47,151 nucleotides of DNA, taken from contig JAKAJH010000023.1 of assembly GCA_021813905.1 (NCBI GenBank), positions 1-47,151 on the forward strand. Direction: 5' to 3'. Of the stretch, positions 40,090 to 47,151 are shown piece by piece. Source of the DNA: Bacteroidota bacterium (GTDB lineage: Bacteria; Bacteroidota; Ignavibacteria; UBA10030). The position numbers and the translations under genes were made by a program. The notes beneath the pieces are model-generated. The model was not told where the DNA came from. It saw nothing but the letters and a program-made list of their open reading frames with translations, and made no database searches. How positions within the stretch are numbered: position 1 is the stretch's first letter; every line of letters begins with the position of its first letter.

Positions 40090-40129
40090 GAACCCGGGCG
40101 CTCTCCGGCCGCGGAAGGCGTCCGGGTTC
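40090..40129. terminator. Bidirectional hairpin between convergent genes
   Basis: GAACCCGGGCGC (40090-40101) pairs with GCGTCCGGGTTC (40118-40129), a 12-bp stem with one G.T pair and a 16-nt loop. There is no T run on either side. Position between two converging genes suggests a shared transcription end; the 3' arm overlaps the NtrC-type gene's stop. Confidence 0.55.
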
Positions 40130-41510
40130 AGATGCCGATTCCGAAGCGCCGGGCAGCACGGTACAGCGTTGCCCGACTCATGCCCAGACGTCGCGCCGCG
40201 TCAACAATATTCCCTCCCGTCACCTGCAGCGCGTGACGGATCGCCTCTTCCTTGAGCCGCTCGAGCGGAATGACCTCCGCCTGTTGCTCCTGAAACAAGC
40301 GCGGGGCAGACAATTGACCCGACTCCGTCGGCGCGCATGACTGAATGGCGACCGGCAAATCCGTGTCGGTAAATGTATTGCCTTCTGCCAGCACCACCCC
40401 CCGCTGGATTGCATTTTCGAGTTCCCGCACATTCCCGGGCCACGGATACGCATAGAGCAGATCGAGCGCCTTTCGCGAGAAGCGCAGGTCGGGCTTTCCG
40501 TGATCTGTTCCGAATTTGCGGAGGAAGTGTTCCGCCAGCAACAGAATATCTGAGCGGCGGCTTCGGAGAGGAGGGAGAAGTATGGGGAAGGTGGATAAGC
40601 GGTAGTACAAATCCTCCCGAAATCGCTTCTGCCGGACTTCCTCCCGCAGATCCCGGTTTGTAGCCGAGATAACACGCGCGTCCGACGTGATCACGTCATT
40701 CCCGCCGACCCGATTGAACTCCTTTTCCTGAATCACCCGGAGAATCTTCGCCTGAAGAGTCGGATCCATCTCTCCGATCTCGTCGAGAAAGATCGTCCCT
40801 CCCGCCGCAAGCTCGAATTTTCCGATGCGTCGTTGCGCGGCGCCGGTGAACGCCCCCCGTTCGTGGCCGAACAGCTCGCTCTCCAGCAGGTCATGCGGGA
40901 TTGACGCACAGTTGACGGCAACGAACGGCCCGCGGGCGCGACGGCTGTTGGAGTGGATGGCTCGCGCGATCAGTTCTTTGCCGGTTCCGCTTTCCCCGAG
41001 GACGAGCACGGGAATCTCGCTGTCCTTGACCTTCCGTACGAGTCGGAACACCTCCTGCATTTCTCCGCTCTGTGACAGCATGTTCTCGAAGTGTATGGTC
41101 GCACGGTCATTCTCCCGCAGACGCTGCACCTCTTTGGTCAACGCACCGATCCGCAATGCGTTCTTGATGGCGATCTCGAGCTTGGGAAAATCCACCGGCT
41201 TGCTGAAATAGTCGGCGGCCCCGACCTTCAGCGTTTCGAGGGCCACTTCGATCTTCGCTTGTGCGGAAAGGACGATCACCGGCAGATCGGGCAACTGCTG
41301 CTTGACGGCTTTCAGTACATCCACACCGTTCATGTCGGGGAGCATGAGGTCGAGCAACACCAGCTCGGGCGGATCGGCCAACCGGTTTAGAAACGGCTCC
41401 GCCTGAGAGAAAACCTCGACGGTGTATCCCCAGTCATGCCCGATCCGGTATTCCAGGAGCTTTGCGACGACAGGCTCGTCGTCAACGATGGCGATTCGTT
41501 CAGCGGGCAT
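40128..41510 (-). CDS. NtrC-family sigma54-dependent response regulator
   Basis: I start at the ATG at 41510, which has a TGGAGGAAA ribosome site; 24 further codons upstream are open but unlike the family. The 460-residue protein has a receiver (Asp54 in VLLDLMLPDM), an AAA+ domain with Walker A GESGTGKE, the sigma54-contacting GAFTGA loop, Walker B IFLDEIGE and a YPWPGNVREL sensor region, and a Fis-type helix-turn-helix at the C-terminus (GNIVDAARRLGMSRATLYRAARRF). It activates sigma54 promoters from distant sites. Two such promoters lie in the adjacent divergent spacer, so its direct targets are probably this gene's own operon and the + strand fibre-like operon. Its partner kinase is not evident, apart from the DHp fragment upstream. 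Confidence 0.95.
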   Translation of the reverse strand: MPAERIAIVDDEPVVAKLLEYRIGHDWGYTVEVFSQAEPFLNRLADPPELVLLDLMLPDMNGVDVLKAVKQQLPDLPVIVLSAQAKIEVALETLKVGAADYFSKPVDFPKLEIAIKNALRIGALTKEVQRLRENDRATIHFENMLSQSGEMQEVFRLVRKVKDSEIPVLVLGESGTGKELIARAIHSNSRRARGPFVAVNCASIPHDLLESELFGHERGAFTGAAQRRIGKFELAAGGTIFLDEIGEMDPTLQAKILRVIQEKEFNRVGGNDVITSDARVISATNRDLREEVRQKRFREDLYYRLSTFPILLPPLRSRRSDILLLAEHFLRKFGTDHGKPDLRFSRKALDLLYAYPWPGNVRELENAIQRGVVLAEGNTFTDTDLPVAIQSCAPTESGQLSAPRLFQEQQAEVIPLERLKEEAIRHALQVTGGNIVDAARRLGMSRATLYRAARRFGIGI

Positions 41511-41614
41511 TTCATTTCCTCCAGGCGCGGTGATTGAGACCGGCATCTTGCGACGAACGCAGGGAAGGAGCAGCAACTTCAAAAAGCAGAGAGGATGTCG
41601 ATCGGGCCGTCCGG

Positions 41615-41911
41615 TCAGCGTGATCCCCGGCTGCGCTCGGCAACCAGCACGTCGCTGACAATCGCTGACACGAGTTCACTGAGGCGTACGCCTTCATCAT
41701 GAATGTATCGGAGATATTCAGTCCGTCGGTCTTCATCCATCGCCGGATTCTTCAGCAGCAGTTCTGAAAAGCCGATGATGGATGTCAATGGAGTTCTGAG
41801 CTCATGCGAGAGCGCCGAGGCAAGATCGTCGCCGGGACGGTCGAACTCATCCAGCAGCCGTTGCGCCTCGGATTTCGCTAGAAGAAGCTTCGTTGGGATC
41901 ACATTGCTCAT
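41615..41911 (-). CDS. Stand-alone histidine kinase DHp (HisKA) domain
   Basis: The 98-residue product contains a complete HisKA helix pair, with the phospho-His in ALSHELRTPLTSIIGFSELLL, but ends about 15 residues after the second helix. Only 104 bp separate it from the NtrC-type gene, too little for an ATPase domain, and an in-frame stop lies directly upstream of its ATG, so no N-terminal sensor is missing by misread start. It may be a phosphotransfer or dimerisation partner, comparable in idea to Spo0B, or a decayed kinase kept for its DHp domain. A sigma54 promoter lies about 30 bp upstream of the ATG on this strand. Confidence 0.75.
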   Translation of the reverse strand: MSNVIPTKLLLAKSEAQRLLDEFDRPGDDLASALSHELRTPLTSIIGFSELLLKNPAMDEDRRTEYLRYIHDEGVRLSELVSAIVSDVLVAERSRGSR

Positions 41912-41940: not shown

Positions 41941-41957
41941 ATGCAATCCCAGTGCCA
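41941..41957 (-). promoter_or_regulatory. Sigma54 (-24/-12) promoter for the DHp-NtrC operon
   Basis: On the - strand the sequence reads TGGCAC (41957-41952), TGGGA, TTGCAT (41946-41941), an exact match to TGGCAC-N5-TTGCAT with the -24 GG and -12 GC in place. The predicted start is about 41931, some 20 nt before the DHp ATG. This implies autoregulation of the NtrC-type operon. Confidence 0.8.
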
Positions 41958-42194: not shown

Positions 42195-42210
42195 TGGCAC
42201 GGGGATTGGA
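42195..42210 (+). promoter_or_regulatory. Sigma54 (-24/-12) promoter for the fibre-like operon
   Basis: TGGCAC (42195-42200), GGGGA, TTGGA (42206-42210): one mismatch (G for C) to the TTGCA half. It is nearly identical to the leftward promoter over 17 positions. The start is expected near 42221, about 42 nt before the ATG of the first subunit gene. Confidence 0.7.
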
Positions 42211-42262: not shown

Positions 42263-42763
42263 ATGAAAAAGCTCACGATGATCCTGGCCACCGGCGCACT
42301 CAGCGTCATGATCATTGCATCTGCCCGCGCCCAGGCGACGGCCACACAGTCGCTGACCCTCGCGGTCAATTCCGTGTTCAAGATCGCCACGTCCGGGAAC
42401 CCGGCACCACTGACGATCGTCTCCGGCACCGCCGGCTCCGACAACCTGACCCCGGTTTCAGACAACTCCACAACCTACAGCATCACGCAGAATTTCGGCA
42501 ACACCGTGAAGATTACCGCCAATTTGAATACGGCCCTTCCTGTGGGTTACACGCTCCAGATCGCTCTCGCCAGCACCAAAGGCACGAGCGCCGGTACTCT
42601 TGATATCTCGAACACCGCGTCCGGGAGTGCCGTCGACGTTGTTACCGCCGTGCAACGCGGCGCTGACGCGGGCCAATCGATCGGTTATACCTTCTCCGCG
42701 CTTGCTTCGGCCGGGACGCTGTCATCCACAACGAAAACCGTCACGCTGACGCTGACGAACTAA
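42263..42763 (+). CDS. Secreted beta-rich subunit A (putative major fibre subunit)
   Basis: The ATG 42263 follows AAAAAAGGAAACGAAA, the best ribosome site in the operon. The 166-residue protein has a signal peptide (SARA|QAT) and a Thr/Ser/Ala-rich single domain with alternating beta strands: TQSLTLAVNSVFKI near the mature N-terminus, NTVKITANL, and a final strand KTVTLTLTN. There are no cysteines in the mature part. It is a close paralogue of the next gene and a distant one of the three after. Strand-rich small subunits followed by a chaperone-like and a barrel-like gene suggest a pilin-type role, which is inference; I know no named family with certainty. Confidence 0.7.
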   Translation: MKKLTMILATGALSVMIIASARAQATATQSLTLAVNSVFKIATSGNPAPLTIVSGTAGSDNLTPVSDNSTTYSITQNFGNTVKITANLNTALPVGYTLQIALASTKGTSAGTLDISNTASGSAVDVVTAVQRGADAGQSIGYTFSALASAGTLSSTTKTVTLTLTN

Positions 42764-42811
42764 TCACGAAAATCACTACATTTCCATCACTCTTTTACAG
42801 AAAGATCCGCC

Positions 42812-43309
42812 ATGAAAAAGTCGCCCGTGTTCGCCCTGGCCGCCCTGTCCATCTTCGCGCTCCAGGCATCGTTCGCCCAGGCATCGGCGAACCAGACGGT
42901 GAACCTGACCGTGAACTCTGTCTACAAGATCGCTACCTCCGGGAATCCCGCGCCGCTGACGATCACCACCGGCACCGCCGGCACGGACAATCTCACCGCC
43001 GTGTCCGACAATTCGACCACCTACAGCATCACACAGAACTTCGCCAACACCGTGAAGATCACCGCGAATCTGGATGCAGCGCTTTCTTCCGGCTACACTC
43101 TGCAGCTCAATCTCGCCAGCACGAAAGGCACAAGCACCGGGACGATTGATATCTCCAACGCCACGTCGGGCAGTGCCGTTGATGTGGTCACCGCCATCAA
43201 TCGCGGTGCTGACGCGGGACAGGCGATCACCTATACGTTCGGTGCCCTCGCCTCTGCCGGCACGATGTCCTCGACGAACAAGACGGTGACGCTGACTCTG
43301 ACGAACTAA
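42812..43309 (+). CDS. Secreted beta-rich subunit B, paralogue of A
   Basis: The 165-residue protein has signal peptide SFA|QAS and then the same domain as subunit A: NQTVNLTVNSVYKIATSGNP, DNSTTYSITQNFANTVKIT, GSAVDVVTAINRGADAG and the terminal NKTVTLTLTN. The two look about 70% identical by eye, so they arose by tandem duplication, with the core better kept than the signal peptides. The ribosome site is weaker than that of A. A 48-bp spacer without a hairpin separates the two, while a strong hairpin follows this gene, setting A and B apart as the likely abundant subunits. Confidence 0.7.
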   Translation: MKKSPVFALAALSIFALQASFAQASANQTVNLTVNSVYKIATSGNPAPLTITTGTAGTDNLTAVSDNSTTYSITQNFANTVKITANLDAALSSGYTLQLNLASTKGTSTGTIDISNATSGSAVDVVTAINRGADAGQAITYTFGALASAGTMSSTNKTVTLTLTN

Positions 43310-43327
43310 AGAGACTCTGTGGGGATC

Positions 43328-43369
43328 AGGACCGTGGCAGAGAAGAACTTCAGTATCTGTCACGGTCTT
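43328..43369 (+). terminator. Strong intercistronic hairpin after subunit B (attenuator or stability element)
   Basis: AGGACCGTGGCAGA (43328-43341) pairs with TCTGTCACGGTCTT (43356-43369): 14 pairs including two G.U, around a 14-nt loop that can fold further. No T run follows, so it may only partly stop transcription or protect the upstream mRNA. It sits 18 bp after the subunit B stop and 24 bp before the next gene. Confidence 0.65.
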
Positions 43370-43393
43370 CTCATATCAGAAGCGCAATTCGTC

Positions 43394-43879
43394 ATGAAGA
43401 ACGCACTCACCATACAAGCCACGCTGATCGCCCTGCTGCTCTGGTCCACGATTGCGGCGGCTCAGGCTTCCCGCACACAACAACTTCTTGTGCTCCGGGT
43501 TCCTGAACTCAACAGCGTCTCGCTTGCCGCAGGCATGGTGACCGTCTTGATCCCTGGCCGGGCAGAGAACCACGCCGCGCCTCCCGATGGGCAGGTTAAG
43601 CTGCTGTGGACGGTGACCGGTGAGAACCGCAAGATCACGGTGGCAATTGACCGGAACCCTGTCCGGCCGGCCCTTCGATTAATTCCGCAGGATATCACGC
43701 CCGGAGCGGCGGTCGCACAGGTTGAAATGGCCCCCTTGGCGCAGGAACCGCATGATTTTCTGGTGGATGTGAGCCGTTCCGCCGGCAGCTGCCTGATCCG
43801 GTTTGACGCTGCCGGTGGTTCCCCGCGGGATGCAGAACCGACGATGCATCTTGTCACATACACGGTGACTGGCGGCTGA
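43394..43879 (+). CDS. Secreted subunit-like protein C
   Basis: I start at ATG 43394, which gives a clear signal peptide (TIAAA|QAS); 25 further open codons upstream overlap the hairpin. The 161-residue protein keeps the outline of subunits A/B: an N-terminal strand with hydrophobic alternation (TQQLLVLRVPEL), ENRKITVAI in the middle, SAGSCLIRFDA, and a last strand HLVTYTVTGG. It has one Cys in the mature part, shared in position with the next two proteins. It is probably a minor or tip subunit of the same assembly; function is inferred. Confidence 0.6.
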   Translation: MKNALTIQATLIALLLWSTIAAAQASRTQQLLVLRVPELNSVSLAAGMVTVLIPGRAENHAAPPDGQVKLLWTVTGENRKITVAIDRNPVRPALRLIPQDITPGAAVAQVEMAPLAQEPHDFLVDVSRSAGSCLIRFDAAGGSPRDAEPTMHLVTYTVTGG

Positions 43880-43931
43880 AAGCCGTTGGTTGAATCTGGA
43901 CGTCGGGAGAGATATATTTGATGAGCCTCCG

Positions 43932-44441
43932 ATGACTCAGAACCGTCTCACCTCTCGGATATCTGTCGGAACGGCGTTGGTGTTGCTGACCGTGCTGTTC
44001 CCGCCTTTTTGCCGTGCCCAGGTGTACGGCACCGGATCGCACACGGTCACGATCATTGTTCAACCGATCTCGACCATCCGGACCAATATTGGCGCAGTGA
44101 ACATGAGCATCACGGGCGCGAATGCCGTGGCGGGCGTCGACGCAATGTCGGTGAGCGATCAGACGACCACGCTGCTCTGGGGAACGAACAGCAGCCTTCA
44201 GAAAATCGTCGTCAACTCGAGTCTGGTCAGCCCGCTCTACACGCTCAAGCTCCTGGCCGTCGGACTGACCTCGGGTGCGGCGTCGGGTGAGGTGATACTG
44301 TCCGGCTCGGCGCAGGATTTCGTGCTGAATATCGGCCGGACGTCGGGATCATGCGCACTGCGGTATACCGCGGTTGCCCTCGCCTCTCAAGGAACAGGCT
44401 CTGACTTGCACGCCATCACCTTCACTATCCAGACTCAATGA
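43932..44441 (+). CDS. Secreted subunit-like protein D
   Basis: The ATG 43932 yields a 169-residue protein with signal peptide PFCRA|QVY. The mature domain has HTVTIIVQPISTI at the N-terminus, TTTLLWGTNSSLQKIVV, LYTLKLLAVGL, TSGSCALRYTA and a final HAITFTIQTQ strand. These align with proteins C and E, and more loosely with A and B. The ribosome site is poor, suggesting low expression. Its stop overlaps the start of the next gene (ATGA). Confidence 0.6.
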   Translation: MTQNRLTSRISVGTALVLLTVLFPPFCRAQVYGTGSHTVTIIVQPISTIRTNIGAVNMSITGANAVAGVDAMSVSDQTTTLLWGTNSSLQKIVVNSSLVSPLYTLKLLAVGLTSGAASGEVILSGSAQDFVLNIGRTSGSCALRYTAVALASQGTGSDLHAITFTIQTQ

Positions 44442-44914
44442 AGCCACTGATCTCCAAAGGAATTCGTCTTGGAGGTATCTGTGCCGTCCTTGGTATTCTG
44501 GCGGCCCGTCCTGCGGAGGCCCAGGCTCTGCGCGTCAACGGAGGCAGCATCACGTTGACGATGACCACCGGTGTGGCCGGCGCCACGCTCGTGGATGTGC
44601 AGAATACGACGTGCACACTTCGCTATCGGCGCCAATCCAGGATCAGCAAGATTACGGTCAGTACATCTTGCCCCGGTCAGAAATTTGCCCTGCGCGTCCT
44701 CGCCACGAACGTCTCTGACGGGGTCGCCGCTCCGGAAGTGACGTTGCAGGACGGAAATCCGTCGATTGATCTCGTGACGAGCATTCCCACCAGCGGGTTC
44801 AGGAACGGCAACTGCACGCTCCGCTACACGGTTTCCGCGACGTTCGAGGATGGGAACAGCACGGAGCTTGGGAATGACGTGCATTCCGTCTCGTACACCT
44901 TGCAGGCCCAATAG
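44438..44914 (+). CDS. Secreted subunit-like protein E
   Basis: The 158-residue protein has a signal peptide ending AEA|QAL and a beta-rich domain: ALRVNGGSITLTMT, TTCTLRYRRQSRISKITV, GNCTLRYTV and the closing strand HSVSYTLQAQ. It has three Cys in the mature part, one of which matches the single Cys of C and D, leaving two that could form a disulfide. It is translationally coupled to D and followed by a chaperone-like gene whose ribosome site overlaps its end. Confidence 0.6.
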   Translation: MKPLISKGIRLGGICAVLGILAARPAEAQALRVNGGSITLTMTTGVAGATLVDVQNTTCTLRYRRQSRISKITVSTSCPGQKFALRVLATNVSDGVAAPEVTLQDGNPSIDLVTSIPTSGFRNGNCTLRYTVSATFEDGNSTELGNDVHSVSYTLQAQ

Positions 44915-44923
44915 GAGTCCCTG

Positions 44924-45751
44924 ATGAGCGTGACAACTCTTCTCCGCCTGAGTGTGATCATTGCGATCATCGGTCTCGTGCAATCGCTCTCCGCCCAGGT
45001 ATCCGTGATCGGTGATCTGAGTCAGGACAAGGATGCACGGCCGGGTGAGACGTACACGGGCGCGATCGTGGTGCGCAACGACACGAACGAACCGCAGGAG
45101 GCAAAGGTCTACCAGACCGACTACTCGTTCCAGTTCGACGGAACGAACAACTACGGTGAGCCAGGGACGCTTCCGCGATCCAATGCACGGTGGATAGCAT
45201 TCAGTCCTTCCTACCTCACCATTCCTCCGTTGGGCACGATGGCGGTCAACTACTCTGTGAGCGTACCGGCCGACTCCCCGGACCACACACTGGTCGGCAC
45301 GTACTGGAGCATGCTGATGGTGGAAGGGATCCAGAAAGGCTCCGCGGAATCATCGCTGCCGCGGAAGGACAAGAAGGCGCAGATGGGGATCATGCAAACG
45401 ATCCGGTACGGTATTCAGATCGCAACGAGCATTGCCGGCACCGGAACGAAGAAGATCGAGTTCATCGGTGCACGGATTGTGACACAACAGGACGGGAAGA
45501 AGGTGCTGCAGCTCGACATCCGGAATACGGGAGAGATCGGCATGCGGCCGGAGGTGTACGCCGAGCTGTTCAACGCGCAAGGTGCGTCCATCGGCAAATT
45601 CGCCGGGGTGCGCTATCGCATCTATCCCGGCACCTCCGTCCGGCAGAACATCGATGTGAGTTCGGTCGGCAAAGGCACATACAAGGCGCTGGTCGTCGTC
45701 GATGCCGGTGGGGATGACGTCTTTGGAGCGCAATACACTCTCGAATTCTGA
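44924..45751 (+). CDS. PapD-like periplasmic chaperone candidate
   Basis: The 275-residue protein has a signal peptide (LSA|QVS) and a two-domain Ig-like body. The N-terminal domain resembles pilus chaperones: PGETYTGAIVVRNDTNEPQEAKVY, NARWIAFSPSYLTIPPLGTMAVNYSVSVP and GTYWSMLMVEG. A Lys-rich loop (PRKDKKAQMG) then leads to a strand MQTIRYGIQIA, placed where the G1 donor strand would be. A second domain (about 180-275) ends VFGAQYTLEF. AGGAGT precedes the ATG. In chaperone/usher systems such proteins fold subunits by donor-strand complementation. The identity is inferred from pattern and gene order; a DUF916-like protein is an alternative. Confidence 0.6.
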   Translation: MSVTTLLRLSVIIAIIGLVQSLSAQVSVIGDLSQDKDARPGETYTGAIVVRNDTNEPQEAKVYQTDYSFQFDGTNNYGEPGTLPRSNARWIAFSPSYLTIPPLGTMAVNYSVSVPADSPDHTLVGTYWSMLMVEGIQKGSAESSLPRKDKKAQMGIMQTIRYGIQIATSIAGTGTKKIEFIGARIVTQQDGKKVLQLDIRNTGEIGMRPEVYAELFNAQGASIGKFAGVRYRIYPGTSVRQNIDVSSVGKGTYKALVVVDAGGDDVFGAQYTLEF

Positions 45752-45759
45752 CCGCGTTC

Positions 45760-47151
45760 GTGACACGATCGACAACACATGATCCGGTCCGTCTGGCCCG
45801 GATTTTTTTTCTCGGGCTGCTCCTGGCCGGCGCGTCCGGTTCCGTGCTTGCACGCCAGGCAACGGAACTGGCGGTGCGCGCAGCGACAGCGACTATGGTC
45901 GTGAAGCCGGGAGCGGTCGCGACCACCGGGATCGTGATCCGCAACGGAGGTTTGCGTTCCCGGAAGCTCACAAGTCAAGTCACTGTGCCGAGAGGGTGGA
46001 GAGTACTTACCGGAGATGGGACTTTTGATGTGGGTGGCGGAGCAAGCGATCTGCGACTGCTGTCGCTGGCGGTGCCCGTCGAAGCGGCGGCGGGTGAGTA
46101 CTCGGTGCGATACGCGGTGCACGACGGTGATCAGATGGCCGAAGCCATTGTGCGCGTGACGGTCCCCGCTCTTGTGCGCCTTGGACTGACCGTGCTTGAG
46201 GCTCCAAAATTCGTCCGTGCCGGAGAAGTCTTCAGAACGCGGTTCGCCCTGACCAATGCGGGGAATGCAGGGACACATATTCGGCTTTCCTCTCGTAGTT
46301 CGCACAACTTCGATATTCAGCTCGACTCGCCTCTTATCGTGCTTGGGCCACGGGAAACACGGGAGATCGTCGCGCGGACCGCGCTGCCCGCGCGGACCGA
46401 ACGCCTCAGTCACACGCTGGAGTTGACCGTAACGGCCATCCCGGACTCGTCCATTTCTGCGAGTGCATCCAGCGTCGTGTCGGTCATTCCGCTGCCGTCG
46501 GATTCGCGCGACCAGTATGTCGAATATCCCCTCACCGTTCGGGCTCGAGGCGTTGGACAGGGAAATGCGTTTGCGCCTCAGATCGAAGTGTCAGGCGTCG
46601 GGAGCCTGAACGACACGAGAACCGACCGGCTTGAAGTGCTGGTGCGGGCCCCGGAGACTCAATCCCGCTCTGTGCTGGGTCAGCGCGACGAATATCGGAT
46701 GCGCTATCAGTCGAAAGACATTGAGTTGTTCGCCGGCGATCTGAACTATGCCCTCACGCCGCTGACCGAAATGGGCCGCTATGCGACGGGATTCGGCGGG
46801 CGGTTCGTTGCGGGACGATTCGGCGCCGGAGGATTTTACAACACTATCCGATGGTTCACTCCCCGGCAGAAGGAAATGGGGGGATATGTGAGCGTCGAGG
46901 CGGTGAAGGGCTCTTCGCTCAGCCTGAACTACCTCCGGAAGGATCAGCAGACTACAAACGACCTTGCCAGCATCCGTGGACTGAGCACGATCGTGCCGGG
47001 AAGTACGATCGATGTGGAGTATGCGGGAAGTGACGCGAATGGCGTGCGGGATCATGCCCTGGCCACTCGCTTTGACGGCGCTCAGTCCTGGATCTCCTAC
47101 GATCTCCGGTACGTAACGGCGGGAAAGGGATTTGCGGGATACTATCGCGAT
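45760..47151 (+). CDS. Large outer-membrane beta-barrel / usher-like protein, partial (runs off window end)
   Basis: An uninterrupted frame of 464 codons begins at GTG 45760, 8 bp after the chaperone stop, and reaches the last base. It starts with a basic segment and a signal peptide (RIFFLGLLLAGASGSVLA). Residues about 30-260 hold two Ig-like domains (VVKPGAVATTGIVIRNGG; FVRAGEVFRTRFALTNAGN). From about 310 on the chain alternates like barrel strands with aromatic ends: EYRMRYQSKDIELFAGDLNY, GRYATGFGGRFVAGRFGAGG, SWISYDLRYV. Placement after subunits and chaperone suggests the assembly pore, but no clear FimD signature is seen. A T8 run lies in the signal-peptide codons (45803-45810). Confidence 0.65.
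   Translation, partial: MTRSTTHDPVRLARIFFLGLLLAGASGSVLARQATELAVRAATATMVVKPGAVATTGIVIRNGGLRSRKLTSQVTVPRGWRVLTGDGTFDVGGGASDLRLLSLAVPVEAAAGEYSVRYAVHDGDQMAEAIVRVTVPALVRLGLTVLEAPKFVRAGEVFRTRFALTNAGNAGTHIRLSSRSSHNFDIQLDSPLIVLGPRETREIVARTALPARTERLSHTLELTVTAIPDSSISASASSVVSVIPLPSDSRDQYVEYPLTVRARGVGQGNAFAPQIEVSGVGSLNDTRTDRLEVLVRAPETQSRSVLGQRDEYRMRYQSKDIELFAGDLNYALTPLTEMGRYATGFGGRFVAGRFGAGGFYNTIRWFTPRQKEMGGYVSVEAVKGSSLSLNYLRKDQQTTNDLASIRGLSTIVPGSTIDVEYAGSDANGVRDHALATRFDGAQSWISYDLRYVTAGKGFAGYYRD

Follow-up and report, generated by a model that had tools for sequence, protein, structure and literature searches.

Chaperone/usher pili are divided into classical, alternative and archaic classes, and the archaic ones occur in Proteobacteria, Cyanobacteria and Deinococcota (PMC10104325). 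These systems (classical FimC/FimD, archaic CsuC/CupE, alternative CfaA/EcpB-EcpC) are encoded by clustered operons and combine a PapD-like two-Ig chaperone, a large barrel lying between N- and C-terminal domains, and secreted subunits of small size, which carry an alternating strand at the N-terminus except for one that, like the tip adhesin, is strand-less. The WxL/WxLIP clusters of Firmicutes (DUF916-DUF3324; PDB 9i25, 9i1y) likewise pair a two-Ig protein with small beta-rich partners, but WxLIP carries a membrane helix at its C-terminus, and these clusters lack an usher. The window analysed here is an entire 47,151-base contig (C4) of the 3.08-Mb assembly of a Bacteroidota bacterium (Ignavibacteria). 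At its end it carries seven genes of an operon, which probably builds a surface fibre by a mechanism of the chaperone/usher type.

All open reading frames (ORFs) of the operon lie on the plus strand with intergenic gaps of at most about 90 bases, and their sequences contain signal peptides of the AxA-Q type in all seven cases. The genes are as follows.

42263-42763, plus strand: subunit 1 (ATG at 42263), probable major pilin, with an N-terminal donor-like strand
42812-43309, plus strand: subunit 2, probable major pilin and tandem duplicate, with the N-terminal strand
43397-43879, plus strand: subunit 3, putative minor pilin, with the N-terminal strand
43932-44441, plus strand: subunit 4, putative minor pilin, with the N-terminal strand
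44438-44914, plus strand: subunit 5, probable tip or initiator, without the N-terminal strand
44924-45751, plus strand: PapD/WxLIP-like periplasmic chaperone of 275 aa with two Ig domains (AlphaFold2 fold, fold matches, WxLIP profile match)
45760-47151, plus strand: first 464 codons of an usher-like outer-membrane barrel protein (Ig-Ig and the start of the barrel, after an orthologue model)

When the chaperone alignment was run against 84,980 species genomes, 171 related stretches were obtained, and 80 of them were kept. Iterated hidden Markov model (HMM) searches started from any single subunit retrieved all five (E = 1e-17 to 1e-46) and about 180 relatives, therefore the paralogy of the five consecutive small secreted proteins, which the original prediction had claimed, is real; subunits 1 and 2 share 74% identity. 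The aligned family consists of a core of about 120 residues with a VTxTxT strand in the last C-terminal residues, and in most members a strand of 12–15 residues with alternating hydrophobics (consensus TQTVTLEVSAIN) is located between the signal peptide and the core. This strand was missing from 35 of the 42 chaperone-adjacent subunits versus two of the 129 at other positions (Fisher p = 5e-27, a value inflated by relatedness). Most of the loci where the first HMM missed the chaperone-adjacent gene hold there a divergent, strand-less subunit that starts directly at the core. Donor-strand polymerisation behind a tip without such a strand requires this pattern, in which every subunit but one has a donor strand. 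Judged from the alignments, the family appears to possess both the N-terminal donor extension and the strand-less tip subunit of the chaperone/usher pathway, and subunit 5, which adjoins the chaperone gene, is probably the tip. Profile searches of the PDB with the subunits gave no significant match, CsuA/B being reached only at E = 0.54. In the Rhodothermales-type loci L081, L083 and L088, the gene directly upstream of the subunit genes encodes a secreted product roughly 1000 aa long, possibly an adhesin.

A fimbria of the Bacteroidota type V (FimA/Mfa1-like) would also be a candidate, as donor-strand-polymerised pili are known from the same phylum (for Mfa1 see PMC5789003), yet it is most improbable here. 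The signals of the five subunits end in AxA/AQ, as expected for signal peptidase I, with no lipobox, and a match to FimA-like_C was found in one member of the subunit family only and was weak (E = 0.013). Furthermore, type V pili are not known to use a PapD-like chaperone or an usher.

The AlphaFold2 model of the window chaperone (82 relatives in the alignment, pLDDT 94.6) has a PapD-like two-Ig fold. Foldseek and VIA-align 2 put WxLIP of Enterococcus faecium at the top (Z = 16.7), and the further matches were YadV (Z = 12.9), CfaA (12.8), FimC (12.7) and CsuC (12.1), then Caf1M and PapD. Model and fold searches agree with the earlier assignment of a two-domain PapD-like chaperone, and predict that the operon encodes the periplasmic chaperone typical of the chaperone/usher pathway. 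Its putative G1 donor strand (residues ~152-160) also has the expected character, alternating hydrophobics with a conserved basic residue: positions 154, 156 and 160 are hydrophobic in 83–100% of the 82 members, and an invariant Arg161 follows directly. Judged by the motif alone, Arg161 may be the counterpart of PapD Lys112, while a counterpart of Arg8 was not seen in the chaperone family. In the model of the free chaperone, the stretch preceding Arg161 is not a strand; in this it resembles the WxLIP hairpin, for which ordering only upon WxL binding is reported (PMC10599100).

By sequence, the window chaperone is nearer to the Gram-positive WxLIP than to PapD or CsuC. The only significant solved relative found with the family profile in the PDB was EfmWxLIP1 (E = 1.8e-5), and one family member, L047 from Bacteroidota, passed the Pfam cut-off of WxLIP_HBD (PF11797), whereas the window chaperone itself matched neither of the WxLIP models (PF06030, PF11797). 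These matches, together with the predicted insertion of a WxLIP strand into WxL (PMC10599100), favour a diderm WxL/WxLIP surface complex, in which the chaperone-like protein would keep one or two subunits bound and these would be displayed through the barrel without polymerisation. Such a complex is unlikely, because the chaperone has no wall anchor or C-terminal membrane helix (in the model it ends with a terminal beta strand, residues 266-274), the operons encode up to six paralogous subunits that carry N-terminal strands except for a strand-less one, an usher-like pore is almost always there, and no WxL domain match was obtained in the subunits.

The structure of the barrel protein was assessed on the model of an orthologue from a close relative (L054:3283-6390, pLDDT 88), in which two Ig domains precede a barrel with 26 strands as counted by DSSP, followed by a pair of beta-sandwich domains and a SPOR domain. 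The original prediction of a signal-peptide-bearing Ig plus barrel protein at 45760 accords with this usher-like model, and the operon is predicted to encode an outer-membrane usher with a large beta-barrel, as the chaperone/usher pathway has. In Foldseek, ranks 1-9 were all FimD chains (E down to 1e-14) and PapC was the next bacterial secretion pore. The ranking by VIA-align was different: MtrB, a barrel of 26 strands, came first (Z = 18.8), the pores of FimD and PapC scored 17.0, and the porins AlgE and Occ reached Z = 14-16. This order would suit a barrel of the MtrB/AlgE kind that serves as a general porin or conduit, the small proteins then being unrelated soluble or matrix proteins. We consider this very unlikely, since Foldseek puts FimD first, the barrel gene is strictly linked to that of the chaperone, and no cytochrome or polysaccharide genes were recognised in the listed neighbourhoods. 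MtrB and AlgE are also not known to have the layout of two Ig domains, barrel and two sandwiches.

CooC_C is the C-terminal domain of alternative-class ushers, and it was matched weakly by a few members of the barrel family, including the second half of the window's own protein, while Pfam CarboxypepD_reg was present in 45 of 45. The alternative-class usher EcpC of E. coli has a CooC_C match and a weak CarboxypepD_reg match as well. A C-terminal SPOR domain was found in eight of the 18 barrel genes in alignment A3 and LysM in two others; these tails possibly anchor the fibre base to peptidoglycan.

The window ends within the barrel gene. When the own genome was searched with the second half of the orthologue, the remaining 569 codons were found at the end of another contig, C26, and these include the SPOR domain, which forms the C-terminal end of the window's protein. 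The ends of C4 and C26 have 13 bases in common in the middle of the gene, across which the reading frame runs on. Because of this overlap and the gene order in relatives, the two contigs seem to adjoin. Downstream of the barrel gene, C26 encodes a sixth subunit and then a secreted protein of 116 aa (L155:5966-6313, minus strand), so that both the rest of the gene at 45760 and the genes behind it were recovered. The 116-aa protein belongs to no family and has a donor-strand-like start (QIVSFGV), similar short ORFs being present in L039, L040 and L053; it is possibly a terminator or anchor.

The order subunits–chaperone–pore, on which the original prediction was based, is kept in relatives: in 77 of the 80 loci the barrel gene lies directly downstream of the chaperone gene, with a median gap of 7 nt (in the spirochaete locus L107 it lies upstream). 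A restriction of the system to one lineage did not hold, as at least 14 named phyla possess the gene set; cultured carriers include Thiohalocapsa marina DSM 19078 and Draconibacterium sediminis. Among the groups are Ignavibacteriota, Bacteroidota (including Bacteroidales), Rhodothermota (Rhodothermales), Chlorobiota, Gemmatimonadota, Pseudomonadota, Thermodesulfobacteriota, Myxococcota, Armatimonadota, Verrucomicrobiota, Planctomycetota, Spirochaetota, Synergistota, diderm Bacillota (Orenia), Zixiibacteriota and Aminicenantes; mis-binned contigs are possible among the loci. Within Bacteroidota, 59 of 395 genomes had a chaperone match, about 25 of these matches being strong. The tree groups by phylum (25 label changes vs 51 in shuffles), a pattern that points to a system of old origin and to some transfer.

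Several observations weigh against a chaperone/usher machine. Chaperone-adjacent subunits that do carry the strand exist in L105, L116, L117 and L124. The plug domain expected of an usher was not found: all 26 strands of the modelled barrel follow one another without interruption, and no loop insertion in the aligned relatives exceeds 34 aa, therefore the plug is lacking family-wide. At E = 0.01, no member of the chaperone family reached PF00345 (PapD_N) and no member of the barrel family PF00577 (Usher), in line with the lack of classical signatures remarked earlier for this locus. Comparison of the two families with their E. coli K-12 counterparts by hhalign gave weak scores, which were above the reversed controls and not decisive (for the ushers, E = 2e-4 vs 8e-3 in the reversed control). 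In the whole own genome PF00345 had no match, PF00577 was over the cut-off in none of 198 Bacteroidota genomes and in none of 20 genomes carrying the system, and in NCBIfam the chaperone family and the proteins encoded in the window had incidental weak matches only. As a control, FimC and FimD of K-12 matched these Pfam models, while the alternative-class EcpB, EcpE and EcpC likewise missed PF00345/PF00577. Since a known usher, EcpC, escapes PF00577, its absence alone leaves kinship possible.

Taken together, it is well supported that the system works like the chaperone/usher pathway, and fibre formation itself is inferred. In the proposed mechanism, the G1 strand of the chaperone would complete and cap each subunit in the periplasm, and the usher-like barrel would take up the chaperone–subunit complexes and secrete the subunits, the N-terminal strand of each displacing the chaperone strand in its neighbour. 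The strand-less subunit 5 would be secreted first and form the tip, subunits 1 and 2 the shaft, while subunits 3, 4 and 6 may be minor parts or the terminator. The SPOR tail would tie the usher to peptidoglycan.

Regulatory features were located upstream of the operon, on both strands.

40128-41582, minus strand: sigma-54-dependent response regulator with the domains REC, AAA and Fis HTH, oriented divergently to the operon; Pfam Response_reg, Sigma54_activat and HTH_8 above cut-off
41615-41911, minus strand: HisKA-only histidine kinase-like protein of 98 aa (Pfam HisKA, 56 bits), with no ATPase domain
41942-41957, minus strand: sigma-54 promoter (-24/-12) facing the regulator genes, perfect consensus
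42195-42210, plus strand: sigma-54 promoter facing the subunit operon, one mismatch, 53 bases upstream of the first ATG

Allowing at most one mismatch to TGGCAC-N5-TTGCW, these two were the only sites in the window, and both fall in the 350-base gap between regulator and subunit genes, one per direction. The divergent promoter pair is also present in L034, L037, L040 and L041, the operon-facing site occupies the same position in L034, L035, L036, L037, L039, L040 and L041, and the response regulator gene adjoins the subunit genes in L034, L037, L039, L040 and L041 as well. The confinement of the sites to the gap and the conservation of the arrangement support the sigma-54 control suggested in the original prediction. 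In the L037 orthologue of the 98-aa protein, HisKA and HATPase_c are both present.

A related machine occurs in many phyla where no curated model names it. If the proposed function is true, many environmental bacteria would have an unseen adhesion or biofilm fibre, secreted through an usher-like pore that needs gating without a plug, and the system would be an evolutionary bridge to WxL/WxLIP. Nothing in the open-access literature searched describes the gene set; this search extended neither to preprints nor to the bulk of subscription papers, thus an earlier description is possible.

Among the systems compared, a cluster of another Bacteroidota genome (G175; L136:5597-11777) is similar in gene order and in its chaperone, which matches the family profile at 2.5e-19. 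It encodes DUF4402-like subunits and a 994-aa barrel, and differs from the window operon in a weak PF00577 match of this barrel (20 bits), in TPR-like C-terminal matches, and in subunits with no detectable relation to those of the window; it is a possible bridge to the classical systems. The WxL/WxLIP clusters provide the nearest solved relative of the chaperone, and they differ in the membrane helix, in the missing usher and in partners whose WxL domain is not recognisable in the window subunits. With the described chaperone/usher pathway, the operon shares all components listed at the outset. Its differences are that the PapD_N and Usher models do not match, the subunit sequences are unrelated, and the phyla concerned are without described pili of this kind. 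Known ushers have 24 strands and an usher N-terminal domain, while the window-type barrel has about 26 strands with no plug insert, two Ig (NEW3-like) domains instead, and C-terminal domains resembling CarboxypepD_reg, to which a SPOR or LysM tail is often added. In its sequences and in the details of its architecture, the system would form a separate class outside the classical, archaic and alternative ones, to none of which we assign it. The chances appear about even that it represents a further major chaperone/usher class of ancient origin, present in 14 or more named diderm phyla, in which an usher-like barrel without a plug and a chaperone of the WxLIP type link the WxL surface proteins of Gram-positives to the pili of Gram-negatives through one donor-strand mechanism.

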